From contig JAMPKV010000005.1 in assembly GCA_039962225.1 (NCBI GenBank), positions 1 to 64,000 of the forward strand: a stretch of 64,000 nt of DNA. The letters are read 5' to 3'. The notes below the pieces were generated by a model that was given only the letters and a program-made list of their open reading frames with translations, was not told where the DNA came from and made no database searches. Position numbers and translations under genes: made by a program. Shown here one piece after another: positions 18,284 to 29,987 of the stretch (positions within the stretch are counted from its first letter, which is position 1; every line of letters starts with the position of its first letter). The stretch comes from Microcoleus sp. AS-A8. Lineage in GTDB: Bacteria > Cyanobacteriota > Cyanobacteriia > Cyanobacteriales > Coleofasciculaceae.

Positions 18284-19489
18284 TTAAGTCCACGCTACGA
18301 GTTCGGGTTGGGATTCTGGATGAATATAGGCGGGTTTCTCTTTGCGCGGAAGCTGACCGGATAGCACCAAATGCGCCATCGCATCACAGATTACGCGAGT
18401 TGCCATCAGAGAGGTAATATCACTGATGTCGTAGGGTGGGGAAACTTCCACGACTTCCAAACCACAAACAGGAGCCTTTTGCACAATCTTGCCCAGCAGA
18501 TGGAGGGCTTCGCGGGGGAGGAGTCCACCGGGTTCGGGCCAGCCTGTACCAGGGACAAAGCCTGCATCAATGCAGTCAATATCAAAGCTGATGTAGACAC
18601 AATCGGTGCCATCTAATGCCCGTTCGAGGGCAAAATCTACAGCGGCATCCAACCCCATTTCGGTAATATCGGTCACGGTTAAGATATTATGACTTGCCCG
18701 TTCTCGGTAAAATTTGATGCCCTCGCGGGGACATTGCCAGCCGCCAATCCCTAATTGCACTAAGTTCTTGGCTGGGGCGTTCTTCATGTTCGTGGCATGA
18801 AACCAAGGACAGGTGTGCATCCGCTCATCTAGGTCGGTTTCTTGGGTATCGACGTGGCGATCAAAGTGAATGATGCCCACTTTCTTGTCGCCCAAGTGCC
18901 GACAAATGCCCCGAACAGTGGGGAAACCAATGGAATGGTCACCCCCTAGAATAATCGGAAATGCTCCAGAGCTAAAGATGTGAGCAATACCTTTGGAAAT
19001 CTGGTCAAATGACTTTTCGTTGTTGGCGGGAATAGTGAAGATATCGCCCACATCACAGAGTTTGATTTGCTCGCGCAAGTCAATTCCCAACTCAAAATTG
19101 TAGGGCGTATACAAGGCAGAAATGCGGCGAATACCTTGGGGACCAAAGCGAGTACCGGGTCGATAGGTTGTTCCAGAATCGTGAGGAACGCCCACGATCG
19201 CCACATCATACTCCCCAACCTTGCGAACATCCTCTACATACGGTGCTTTCATAAAGGTGTTGATGCCAGCGTAGTGAGGGAGTTCACCGCGTGAGAAAGT
19301 GGGAATGCTGCGATCGCGAATACTTTCTGCCGCTTCTAAACCGTATTCCAGCCCTTTGGATACCTCCTGCTGCCAACCCGTCTTCGGCAGTCGAGCTTCC
19401 AACTCCAGCGCCCGTTGCGCCTGAGTCGGATAATGCCCATTCCCATCTGGACTCTGAAACAGAGGGTTTTCAGAATTATTTTCAGTCAT
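18284..19489 (-). CDS. gdmH: Ni-dependent guanidine hydrolase homologue (GdmH; ureohydrolase family)
   Basis: The 401-residue protein belongs to the arginase/agmatinase fold and would hydrolyse guanidine to urea and ammonia. Metal ligands are visible: H185 in GGDHS, D210, H212 and D214 in FDRHVD, D303 and D305 in SFDIDCID. It differs from ordinary agmatinase (~310 aa) by an N-terminal extension of ~80 residues and by FDRHVD and DAGFVPGTGWPEPGG around the active site, features I associate with Synechocystis Sll1077. The start at 19489 is preceded by an excellent aggag site; a longer frame to 19645 runs into the riboswitch and is not real. hypA follows within 3 bp. Agmatinase activity cannot be excluded from sequence alone. 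Confidence 0.88.
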   Translation of the reverse strand: MTENNSENPLFQSPDGNGHYPTQAQRALELEARLPKTGWQQEVSKGLEYGLEAAESIRDRSIPTFSRGELPHYAGINTFMKAPYVEDVRKVGEYDVAIVGVPHDSGTTYRPGTRFGPQGIRRISALYTPYNFELGIDLREQIKLCDVGDIFTIPANNEKSFDQISKGIAHIFSSGAFPIILGGDHSIGFPTVRGICRHLGDKKVGIIHFDRHVDTQETDLDERMHTCPWFHATNMKNAPAKNLVQLGIGGWQCPREGIKFYRERASHNILTVTDITEMGLDAAVDFALERALDGTDCVYISFDIDCIDAGFVPGTGWPEPGGLLPREALHLLGKIVQKAPVCGLEVVEVSPPYDISDITSLMATRVICDAMAHLVLSGQLPRKEKPAYIHPESQPELVAWT

Positions 19490-19559
19490 TTGCACTCCTG
19501 AGAAGTTTTCAAAACAATTGACGCCAGCGAGTTGGATCGAACCACATTCGGAATCAATA

Positions 19560-19618
19560 CAAAAAGCCCAGGAGAGGACACAATCAGTTTGAGCAACTGA
19601 TGTTTCTCCCGGGCTTTT
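19560..19618 (-). terminator. Riboswitch-controlled terminator (expression platform)
   Basis: On the minus strand AAAAGCCCGGGAGA (19618-19605) can pair with TCTCCTGGGCTTTT, followed by a short U run. The 5' arm is the last conserved strand of the guanidine aptamer, so ligand-bound aptamer and terminator exclude each other. Confidence 0.85.
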
Positions 19619-19735
19619 CTCCCGCCGTGTAACCGACTCATCCAATACACAAGAAAGCAGAGCGCTTAGATCAGCCAGCTTGCTTCTCTCGGACCAGCAT
19701 TTGAATGATGCAAACCGGAACCCTAGAAGCTGTTA
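19604..19735 (-). promoter_or_regulatory. Guanidine-I (ykkC) riboswitch aptamer
   Basis: The minus strand shows the conserved ykkC blocks in order: CTAGGGTTCCGG, then GGTCCGAGAG, then ACACGGCGGGAGAAAAGCCC and GGGAGA. A variable stem lies between the second and third. It sits 115 bp upstream of the gdmH start. Binding of guanidine should protect the last strand and prevent the terminator at 19560-19618, turning the operon on. Confidence 0.92.
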
Positions 19736-20071
19736 ATTTTTCCTTTCGCTCTGTACTTTGAACGACTTCAAAACAGTTTAAGGTTGTCACCCAATTAGGA
19801 ATCCGTCTAGGAAACCTTTAAACTTTACAGAGGATTATCCTGGGTCTTCACTTCTGGAAGAGTAGCAATGAATCCATCGAGAAAATGTAGTGAAAGCTAC
19901 AAAAAAACGGACAGATTCGCCAGTTTTTGTGGAAAATATGAATTTTTCTTGACAAATTCACTCAACTCTCAGGACGGCTAAACTCCACATTCCATTCACT
20001 GCCTAGTTCTGCGAGTAGAGGCAGCCCGGTGTCACACCTCTAGAGTGCCGATCACCCGCTTCAAGCCTGGT
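19736..20071. other. Intergenic region upstream of the guanidine riboswitch
   Basis: It must hold the promoter of the gdmH operon (minus strand), but no consensus box stands out. No gene, tRNA or NtcA box was seen. Confidence 0.4.
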
Positions 20072-25850: not shown

Positions 25851-26318
25851 CTAGGGATTGCTAGCTTGAGCTGATAAGAGCTCTTTTAGTTTCGCCAACT
25901 CACCAGCCCAACGCGGATCAGGTTGAAATCCGCCTGCATCAGAGGAGGATGCTGTTGTACGTTGGTCGTTACCACGCTTGGACTTTTTATTGCCTGTACG
26001 ACGAGTCGGAGGAGTGTGATTGCTTGCTGAGCGTTGGGGTTCCTCTTCCTCTTGTTGTTGGCTCTTTGAGCGTGGTAGAGCTTTTTCGATTTTTAGGGCG
26101 CTCTCTTGGAACATGTGACCATTGTATTTCTCAATGATCTCATCAGCTAATTCATCTGTTGGTACAGTGACAAAGGCAAACCCCCGACATTTGCCGGTTT
26201 TGCGGTCTTTAATGACCTTTGTGGAAACAGACTCACCGGCGTCTGCAAAGACAGCGTGCAGTTCATCGCGGTTTACTTCTTCTTTTGGTAAATTGCCTAC
26301 GTAGAGACGAACGGACAT
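25851..26318 (-). CDS. RRM-type RNA-binding protein (cyanobacterial Rbp)
   Basis: The 155-residue protein begins with one RNA-recognition motif: RNP2 RLYVGNLP near the start and RNP1 KCRGFAFVTV. A charged, Gln/Glu-rich and Lys/Arg-rich low-complexity tail follows. Cyanobacterial Rbps are often cold-induced and can localise mRNA of photosynthesis proteins. I chose ATG 26318 because ggagg lies upstream and the RRM starts at once; a longer frame to 26420 adds non-conserved residues in what is probably a long 5' UTR. The C-terminal ~25 residues (DPRWAGELAKLKELL) form a separate helix. Confidence 0.92.
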   Translation of the reverse strand: MSVRLYVGNLPKEEVNRDELHAVFADAGESVSTKVIKDRKTGKCRGFAFVTVPTDELADEIIEKYNGHMFQESALKIEKALPRSKSQQQEEEEPQRSASNHTPPTRRTGNKKSKRGNDQRTTASSSDAGGFQPDPRWAGELAKLKELLSAQASNP

Positions 26319-27106
26319 GAGAAATACCTCCAGACTTGGATTCAAATAAACTTGTTCGCAGGAGCAGTCATCCTTGCTAAGGATGGATTGGATTGACGAA
26401 CGGTTCCCACGTCCAGACAATCTCTGACGATCCTTACCAAGCTCAACACAACAGACTGATGTAATAAAGCCAAACTCCTATATACCATCCATCCAGGACA
26501 ATTACGACCCGCATGTAGACCTTGGGTTCATAAGTGGCAGGATTAAGGTTAATGGTTTTCCCTTATTCTGATTATTACAGAATGTTTACACTATTCATAA
26601 CGTACCACGCTCTCCTGTAGGCAAGCTAGTATAACAGACAGATTTCCGTCTTTAGCTGTAGCTTGCTGAAAACCTATGTAACTAAGGGGGTAGCTAAAGA
26701 AAGAGATCGAGGCTCGAACTCACCCTTTGTAAATGTTAACCCAGTAGCGACTAAATGACCTTAATAGTAATTGACACAATGGTCAACTGATTTGTTTCAA
26801 TGCGGCGCTCTCTTGGGGAGGGGAAAAGGTTCGTTGCTCTGTTTGCCTGATGATTGTGCCGCTAGAGTGCCTAAAAATTGAAATGCGTAATACCGCCGTT
26901 TTGCCTTTTCGATTCATCAAGCCGCTCTACTAACGTGTTAGGCATCTAAACTGGATACGAGTAAAACGCAAAACCCTTATGCCTGAATGTTGAGAGCGAA
27001 TCGGGCTAAGTCATTTAAATGCTCAACAGCTTATACTTTGAGCATAACTTGGCATCAATCATCATTTGCATCTTGACGAATAAAACAAATAGTGTATATT
27101 GAGGCT
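26319..27106. other. Long intergenic region between rbp and a Yfr2-like RNA
   Basis: It includes the rbp promoter and long leader. No coding frame, tRNA or repeat is supported. Confidence 0.4.
27073..27100 (+). promoter_or_regulatory. Sigma-70-type promoter of the Yfr2-like RNA
   Basis: ttgacg and tatatt are separated by 16 bp. Transcription would start near 27107, giving an RNA of ~70 nt ending at the T run at 27171-27176. Confidence 0.75.
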
Positions 27107-27176
27107 GTGAGTGTGAGAAGAAAGGAAGAAAAAGCGTTTAGGGTCGAAACACGGAAAGACTCCTGGGCGCTTTTTT
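27107..27176 (+). ncRNA. Small RNA resembling the Yfr2 family
   Basis: A 14-bp perfect stem (27129-27142 with 27162-27175, allowing G-U pairs) is extended by gtc/gac around the open loop gaaacacggaaa. The stem is followed by U6 and so acts as terminator. The loop with paired GAAAC/GGAAA-like motifs is what I remember of the cyanobacterial Yfr2/Cyano-1 RNAs. Family name is from memory; the RNA structure itself is direct. Confidence 0.7.
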
Positions 27177-27731
27177 AGTTGAAATAAATTTTACGGATGA
27201 GAAACAATGACTTAGAGTAACCCGTTAATCTAATCAGTGAGGGTTTTTCTATTAATAACCTACAAAATATCGCTGGTCAGCACTCTACATTTTTCTCAAA
27301 AAGCAAAATGTCAATCCGAAAACTCTTTGTCCGACTACGACTTGAAGTTTTAATTTTGTGGAACAAAATTAAGTTATTGGCGAAATACAGGCAGAAGTTC
27401 TATTGGAAGCTCATCTGGGTACAGCTGCTTAATTTTCCTAGTCGATTGTTAGGTTAGGGAAATTTGCCGTTTTTTGGAGAGTGAATTTGAACGGACTCGC
27501 CAGACTACCAGACTACCTAGGGTATTCCAGCTTGGACGGCTTAGCGACAAACTGTATCGGTGCAGAAAAACGGTGTAGTAATATTAGGGCGCGACGTTCG
27601 CCTACCACCTCACCTCAAGGAAACAAAGATTTATCGGCTATTAATAGAATTTTTTTATCAATTCACCCCTACAAGAGGTCAATGCCTAATTTCTGTGTCT
27701 ATCCTGTAAAAGGTAGACGAACACAGACCCG
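27177..27731. other. Intergenic region upstream of tex
   Basis: An 85-residue open frame at 27481-27738 overlaps the tex start and lacks a ribosome site or domain; it is not called. The tex promoter should lie here. Confidence 0.4.
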
Positions 27732-29987
27732 ATGCTGAATATCCCTCAAACACTGGCAGAGGAACTTTCCCTCAGACCTTCTCAGGTACAAAATACCCTC
27801 GAACTCTTCGCTGAGGGTGCCACGGTTCCCTTCATCGCACGTTACCGTAAAGAGCGTACAGGCTCGCTTGACGAAATTCAACTGCGTGACCTTTCCGAGA
27901 GATATACCTACCTGACGGAACTGGAAAATAGGAGGGCGTCAATTTTGGAGGCAATCGCATCCCAAGGTAAACTTAGTGATGAGCTCAAAAGCAAAATTGA
28001 AGGCTGCTTACAGAAAAACGAATTAGAAGACCTTTATCTACCCTACAAACCCAAGCGGCGTACAAGAGCAACGATTGCTAGGGAAAAAGGGTTAGAACCC
28101 CTCGCAGAATTTATCAAATCCCTAAATACTCCCACTGCCAAACCTGCCTCATTAGAGCAAGAAGCGGCTAAATATATTTCCGATGAGAAGGGAGTCAAGA
28201 CCGTAGAGGATGCACTCAAAGGGGCTTCTGATATCCTCGCAGAAGAAGTTTCCGAGAAAGCAGATTTGCGTGCTTACCTGCGAGACTATTTGATGCAGAA
28301 TGGAGTCTTCATATCGCGGATTAAAGATGATTATCCGGAAGGTTCCACCAAATTTGAAATGTACCGGAACTTCCAGGTTAAGGCGAAAGATATTGTCCCC
28401 CATAATATGCTGGCCTTATTTCGAGGTGAGACTGAGGGGATATTGAATCTTGACCTTTCTTTTGATGAAGATGCAGTGCAGTCTTACTTGGAGTCAGAGG
28501 AGATTCGGACTAAGATTCCAACCGTGCGAGATTTTTATCGGGGAATGCTTAAAGATGCCTTCAATCGTCTGATGAAAACTTCCCTCACCACTGAAGTTCG
28601 CGCCGATAGGAAAGCTTACGCTGATATCGAGTCAATTAAGACGTTTGAAACCAATCTCCGCGAGTTGTTACTGTCTGCGCCTGCGGGAATGAAGCCAACA
28701 TTAGCCATTGATCCAGGTTTTCGGACCGGCTGTAAGGTAACGGTCCTGAATGAAACGGGAAAATTTCTGGAATACCAAACGATATTTCCCCATACAGGTG
28801 CGGGTCAACGTGTACAAGCGGCTAGTATAATCAAGAATTTGATTGAGAAGTACAACATTCAGCTAATTGCGATCGGTAACGGTACAGCTTCCCGCGAGAC
28901 GGATGAGTTTGTAGCTGAAGTACTTAAAACAAGCGATCGCCAGCCGATTAAGGTCATCGTCAATGAATCAGGTGCCTCGATTTATTCAGCCAGCGATGTG
29001 GCACGAGAAGAGTTTCCCGACCAAGATGTTACAGTCCGAGGTTCAATTAGTATTGGACGCCGATTACAAGACCCACTAGCTGAGTTAGTGAAAATTGACC
29101 CTAAATCGATTGGTGTGGGGCAGTACCAGCATGATGTCGATCAAAAGTTGCTCAAGAAGAAGCTGGATGACACGGTAGAAAGTTGTGTGAATTATGTGGG
29201 TGTAGATTTAAATACTGCGTCTAAAGAACTCCTGACGTTTGTTTCTGGCATGACACCAACGATTGCCAAAAATATTGTTAATTATCGCAATGAGCATGGC
29301 GCATTTACCAATCGTCGCAAACTCCTAAAAGTTGCTAAATTGGGACCAAAAGCGTTTGAACAGGCGGCAGGATTTCTGAGAATTCGGAATGGAGAGAACC
29401 CGTTAGATAATACCGCTGTACACCCTGAGAGTTATCCGGTTGTGGAAGCGATCGCATCGGATTTAAAAGTCCCCTTGACTAAGATTTCTCAAGCAGCGGA
29501 TCAACTGAAGTCGATTGATTTAAAGAAATACGTGACCGATACAGTTGGCTTACCTACCCTGCGCGATATTATCAGCGAACTAGAAAAGCCAGGAAGAGAC
29601 CCACGGGCTGAGTTTAAATATGCCACCTTTAAAGAGGGAGTCAAGGAAATTTCTGACTTGCAAATCGGCATGGAACTCGAAGGTAGTGTCACAAATGTTG
29701 CTAATTTTGGGGCATTTGTTGACATCGGTGTGCATCAAGATGGCTTGGTCCATATTTCACAATTAGCAGACCGATTTGTTAAAGACCCCAAAGAAATTGT
29801 CAAAGTGGGACAGGTAGTGAAAGTCCGGGTGTTGGAAGTGGATGAGAAATTAAAGCGAATTAGCTTGTCTATGAGGTCACCCGATCCAGCCAGTGGTGAA
29901 GGCAATAGCAAAAAGATTAGCAAGCGCATGGACCCGAAATCGCCAACGATAGAAGACTTAAAGGCAAAGTTTGGGAAGAAGAAATAA
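27732..29987 (+). CDS. tex: Tex-family RNA-binding transcription accessory protein
   Basis: The 751-residue protein follows the Tex layout: N-terminal helical region (ATVPFIARYRKERTGSLDE), the YqgF/RuvX-like domain (TLAIDPGFRTGCKVTVLNE), a helix-hairpin-helix part (LNTASKELLTFVSGM, then PTIAKNIVNYRNEHG) and a C-terminal S1 RNA-binding domain (LEGSVTNVANFGAFVDIGVH). Bacterial Tex acts in transcription and RNA metabolism and is related to Spt6. Length is near normal. No close operon partner exists. Confidence 0.95.
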   Translation: MLNIPQTLAEELSLRPSQVQNTLELFAEGATVPFIARYRKERTGSLDEIQLRDLSERYTYLTELENRRASILEAIASQGKLSDELKSKIEGCLQKNELEDLYLPYKPKRRTRATIAREKGLEPLAEFIKSLNTPTAKPASLEQEAAKYISDEKGVKTVEDALKGASDILAEEVSEKADLRAYLRDYLMQNGVFISRIKDDYPEGSTKFEMYRNFQVKAKDIVPHNMLALFRGETEGILNLDLSFDEDAVQSYLESEEIRTKIPTVRDFYRGMLKDAFNRLMKTSLTTEVRADRKAYADIESIKTFETNLRELLLSAPAGMKPTLAIDPGFRTGCKVTVLNETGKFLEYQTIFPHTGAGQRVQAASIIKNLIEKYNIQLIAIGNGTASRETDEFVAEVLKTSDRQPIKVIVNESGASIYSASDVAREEFPDQDVTVRGSISIGRRLQDPLAELVKIDPKSIGVGQYQHDVDQKLLKKKLDDTVESCVNYVGVDLNTASKELLTFVSGMTPTIAKNIVNYRNEHGAFTNRRKLLKVAKLGPKAFEQAAGFLRIRNGENPLDNTAVHPESYPVVEAIASDLKVPLTKISQAADQLKSIDLKKYVTDTVGLPTLRDIISELEKPGRDPRAEFKYATFKEGVKEISDLQIGMELEGSVTNVANFGAFVDIGVHQDGLVHISQLADRFVKDPKEIVKVGQVVKVRVLEVDEKLKRISLSMRSPDPASGEGNSKKISKRMDPKSPTIEDLKAKFGKKK

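Follow-up and report, generated by a model that had tools for sequence, protein, structure and literature searches.

In this work, we have analysed a window of 64,000 nucleotides of DNA from Microcoleus sp. AS-A8, and in particular a small RNA gene of the Yfr2 (Cyano-1) family that occupies positions 27107 to 27179 of its plus strand, both ends being predicted. The nearest larger open reading frames are an RRM gene on the minus strand (25851-26420, the RRM protein itself probably starting near 26321) and, downstream of the RNA on the plus strand, tex (27732-29987), coding for a Tex/YqgF/S1 protein, so that the RNA lies in a gene-poor gap of about 1.3 kb, in agreement with the long gene-free region claimed by an earlier first-pass annotation of this DNA. 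The order of the RNA and tex is kept in a genome of the same genus (G001) and in a further genome (G010). A plasmid origin of the locus was rejected, positions 26900-27500 having no match in the plasmid collection. Upstream of the RRM-protein gene, positions 26322-26799 (minus strand) share 92-96% identity with the same-genus genome, a level that equals that of the coding part, and the next 200 bases are not conserved; this stretch folds no better than shuffles (z 0.35), and might represent a long conserved leader.

The promoter, terminator stem and unpaired loop described by the first-pass annotation were all recovered. The -35 element TTGACG (27073-27078) and the -10 element TATATT (27095-27100, within the conserved stretch ATAGTGTATA) are separated by 16 nt and agree with the consensus at 10 of 12 positions; TTGAC is retained in five of the six upstream regions that were aligned for this promoter type, the sixth, from G009, reading TGGAC. 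Promoter-like matches alone occur near the RNA at chance level (5 observed, 3.5 expected), so the weight of the case is borne by the RNA itself. Folding gives a stem of 18 pairs, in which the 5΄ arm (27128-27145) pairs with 27158-27160 and 27162-27176, as three inner pairs, a one-base bulge at 27161 and 15 outer pairs, around the 12-nt apical loop GAAACACGGAAA (27146-27157). The 3΄ arm (27158-27176) has a U tract at its end, as in an intrinsic terminator, a T6 tail ends the hairpin, and the 5΄ tail is unpaired. The minimum free energy is -22.9 kcal/mol (z -3.5), and none of 200 shuffles was equally good. The hairpin is absent from the output of a generic terminator scan because that scan takes loops of 3-8 nt only, while the Yfr2 loop has 12.

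The Rfam model RF01701 (Cyano-1, which we take to be the same family as Yfr2) matches 27107-27179 over its full length with 52.2 bits (E 3.5e-6), above the cut-off of 41. This was the search that the first-pass annotation had proposed for its Yfr2-like RNA, and its result, taken with the bulged stem, its loop, the 5΄ tail and the occurrence of copies in every genome searched, bears that identity out. The central loop has 12 nt with the conserved GAAACA.GG, the bulge stands at -4 from the loop, after the three inner pairs, and the unpaired 5΄ stretch GTGAGTGTGAGAAG holds nine of the ten bases of the motif GTGTGAGGAG; an unpaired 5΄ stretch, a 12-nt loop and a stem bulge at -4 are the features given for Yfr2 in the excerpts of PMC2662882, and Cyano-1 is listed in those of PMC2864571. 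The RNA thus shares with the family its unpaired 5΄ GTGTGAG tail, long bulged stem, terminator, 12-nt GAAACANGG loop and occurrence in several copies per genome, and differs in having A for G at 27118, within the anti-Yfr1 motif. This one changed base does not exclude membership, because the exact ten bases are found in only 85 of 101 copies. Other Rfam matches around the RNA (sR11, mir-BHRF1-2, MIR7729 and IS009) were dismissed, all lying far below their own cut-offs. We consider with confidence that it is an ordinary Yfr2 gene, a new member of a known family.

Three RF01701 matches were found in this genome: the window copy (52.2 bits), copy 2 (C5:124589, 51.8 bits) and copy 3 (C7:242399, 35.8 bits, below the cut-off). 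Matches at E up to 0.001 were obtained in every one of the 57 genomes searched (56 relatives besides this one), and 37 of these genomes exceed the cut-off; the 100 copies of this search were joined by one more from a more sensitive pass over the family's 20 genomes. By their inner stem, 52 of the 101 copies belong to class A (GTC/GAC, including the window copy), 47 to class B (GAC/GTC) and 2 to neither. Covariation was measured in an alignment (A1) of 51 class-A copies, which leaves out G006:C249, mis-registered at its 5΄ end, as well as the class-B copies and the two others. In this alignment 94.2% of stem cells are paired versus 79.3% after shuffling, double-change cells number 124 versus 31, and 15 of the 18 pairs show double changes; the covariation score was reached by none of 500 shuffles, and slid versions of the stem were at most 58.5% paired. 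The stem is therefore real, and the lack of covariance support in related genomes, named by the first-pass annotation as a ground for abandoning the RNA, was not what we found.

Several observations concern the family as a whole. Class B, e.g. copy 3 (L003 1501-1568, that is G000:C7:242399-242466), is a widespread subfamily with GCGAACCAG...GACGAAACACGGCCAGTC; 42 of its 47 copies fall below the Rfam cut-off of 41 bits, and default Rfam scans will miss it. Tandem arrays occur, with four copies in L022 (G036:C29), three in L012 (G053:C48) and two in L027 (G030:C9). Yfr2 has two promoter types. The first, with GTCAC or GGCAC at -60 to -36 from the match start, precedes 29 of the 52 copies of class A and none of the 47 of class B; the second, with TTGAC or TGACA at -40 to -25, precedes 12 class-A copies and 44 class-B copies. 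In the present genome copy 2 has GTCAC, and TTGAC/TGACA is found with the window copy and with copy 3. A regulator site may be involved.

The unpaired anti-Yfr1 motif of the window copy (27111-27120) reads GTGTGAGAAG, with A at 27118 where the family has G. Among the 101 copies, GTGTGAGGAG is found in 85, GTGTGAGGAA in eight, and GTGTGAGAAG in the window copy only. Since GTGTGAGGAG is read in both orthologues that precede tex, those of G001 and G010, the change arose in the window lineage; it could also be a sequencing or assembly error. The first-pass annotation did not mention this unique substitution, and a Yfr2 copy with an altered anti-Yfr1 motif is not mentioned in the excerpts of the literature searched, a set that does not take in the principal paper on the family (Gierga et al. 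2009) or the GntR paper.

The expected partner of this motif is Yfr1 (Rfam RF01116), a different RNA with a single-stranded core flanked by two hairpins. The genome has one Yfr1 match above the cut-off, which carries the CUCCUCACAC core, and two chance-level matches. The core CTCCTCACAC is intact in all 44 Yfr1 sequences extracted, this genome's included, out of 53 matches listed; as the other nine were left out, 81 of the 101 Yfr2 copies were paired with a Yfr1 of their own genome. The predicted core duplex with the Yfr1 of the same genome is -16.5 kcal/mol for the window copy, the weakest of the genome's three, -18.7 for copy 2 and -22.9 for copy 3, compared with -26.2 for the G001 orthologue and a median of -21.3 over the 81 copies, among which only one mis-registered copy is weaker than the window copy. 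Changing the base in silico (A27118G) gives -23.4 kcal/mol, the window copy as found being 6.9 kcal/mol weaker. Because 27118 interrupts the Yfr1-binding stretch, the window copy is probably a poorer Yfr1 sponge than either of the other two; binding may well persist, since the prediction for copy 2 is stronger by no more than 2.2 kcal/mol. Separately, TTTCCGT in hairpin 1 of this genome's Yfr1 (L004) is exactly complementary to ACGGAAA in the window loop (27146-27157) and has one mismatch with the loop of copy 2; it is buried in the Yfr1 stem and may mean nothing.

The first-pass annotation had also proposed looking for mRNAs complementary to the loop, and here the outcome was negative. With up to one mismatch, the loop complement TTTCCGTGTTTC has 34 sites in this genome (two of them Yfr2 genes) versus 69 for the reversed control, and 36 versus 53 in G001, fewer than the control in both, so that the loop is not matched above chance. 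The sole exact site that is not a Yfr2 gene (C10:97547) lies in no open frame of more than 84 codons, and when 15 of the 34 sites were compared with 15 of the 36 in G001, only the Yfr2 genes corresponded; we claim no target.

We propose, as very likely, that a genome of 7.75 Mb here carries three Yfr2 genes, of which this one makes an RNA of about 70 nt that would pair with Yfr1 through its 5΄ tail and is probably the weakest sponge. A sigma-70-type promoter would drive an RNA ending at its own hairpin; the unpaired 5΄ tail would anneal to the CUCCUCACAC core, so that Yfr1 is withheld from the mRNAs that it targets; and the 12-nt loop would be free to bind further RNAs. The base at 27118 would break the Yfr1-binding stretch, and the copy might then rely more on its loop or lose its sponge role. 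In Prochlorococcus, according to the excerpts of PMC6778093, Yfr2 pulled down Yfr1 and Yfr10, lifted the repression that Yfr1 exerts on a reporter in E. coli, and kept Yfr1 off the ppa mRNA, and in Nostoc gel shifts showed Yfr2-Yfr1 binding (excerpts of PMC6974561). From these data and the intact Yfr1 core we infer the same mechanism for the window copy, and its transcription, pairing and function are to be read in this way; by analogy with what has been shown for Yfr2 elsewhere, sequestration of Yfr1 together with binding of other RNAs by the loop is its most likely role.

Drift or specialisation may be taking the window copy away from Yfr1. A decaying paralogue, losing its function in this species and on its way to a pseudogene, is possible, though we think it improbable. 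The unique change in the motif would fit decay, as would the pattern of substitutions: between this genome and G001, copy 2 has none, copy 3 has two and the window copy has seven. Of these seven, one is ambiguous, and G010 allows the other six to be polarised, each of which is assigned to the window lineage. Over the first 397 codons of tex the polarised changes divide 37 to 41 and 26 are ambiguous; the contrast in rate with the RNA (6 to 0; Fisher p 0.026, two-sided) rests on six polarised sites, and promoter and RNA together give 8 to 2. However, pairing is preserved at all three stem substitutions, loop and promoter are both undamaged, and the orthologue has a shorter T run, which argues against decay. 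Among drift, specialisation or nothing at all as the meaning of the odd base, we prefer none.

A second reading adds to the Yfr2 identity: through incomplete termination, the Yfr2 cassette might also serve as promoter and 5΄ leader of tex, forming an actuaton of the sort reported for Yfr2b and Yfr2c of Synechocystis. We judge this unlikely. In the window, G001 and G010 alike, tex lies downstream with the orientation of the RNA, as protein genes follow Yfr2b and Yfr2c in the actuatons of Synechocystis (excerpts of PMC5386190), and shared start sites are described in those of PMC2662882. The likeness to Yfr2b and Yfr2c is one of gene order; unlike them, the window RNA is separated from tex by a long spacer of 553 nt, with a strong hairpin and a T6 run intervening, and this spacing is not conserved, being about 309 nt in G010.

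Less likely still, Yfr2 paralogues could have split into sponges and loop-only regulators, the window copy being released from Yfr1 while keeping promoter, stem and loop. In a search of the phylum, a non-G pattern at this position was found in 2 of 386 genomes versus 121 of 386 for the canonical form, the effective denominator being narrower than 386 since both patterns detect almost nothing in small marine genomes. In a collection of 84,980 species the non-G variant occurs in three stretches, from SU2, the endosymbiont of Epithemia clementina and a Thermosynechococcaceae MAG, the last with C at the corresponding position; at this frequency, the G to A change was rejected as the mark of a wide Yfr2 class. 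Within the SU2/endosymbiont group, four copies, those of SU2, E. clementina, G186 and G221, read GTGTGAGAA, and G147 has T in what is probably the counterpart. To judge from these sequences, the position has changed more than once, and the SU2/diatom-endosymbiont change is independent. The copies of this group and the probable G147 counterpart have predicted pairings of -19.6 to -22.3 kcal/mol, calculated against the Yfr1 core of Microcoleus sp. AS-A8 and not their own; further upstream pairing keeps the prediction strong, and these copies thus give no clear support for a loop-only class. Finally, it is hardly credible that the hairpin and its T run are a plain intrinsic terminator or a cis-regulatory leader with no free RNA, as this would leave the promoter, the conserved 5΄ tail and the conserved loop unexplained, along with the RF01701 match and the copies in all the genomes searched.

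What would a weak Yfr1 binder mean? If our proposal of a weakest sponge is true, a natural variant stands beside two intact paralogues in one genome, and it could separate Yfr1 capture from loop-mediated RNA binding within one organism; separating these two proposed jobs of Yfr2 would help to explain the retention of one to nine Yfr2 genes by cyanobacteria.

A second RNA element lies elsewhere in the window, a guanidine-I riboswitch (19604-19737, minus strand, 78.1 bits) upstream of the open reading frame 18284-19645 and of two further ones. The first presumably codes for a ureohydrolase-like protein, and the other two look to us like HypA and HypB. A guanidine hydrolase cluster is known from cyanobacteria, and the order riboswitch, ureohydrolase, HypA, HypB fits it.
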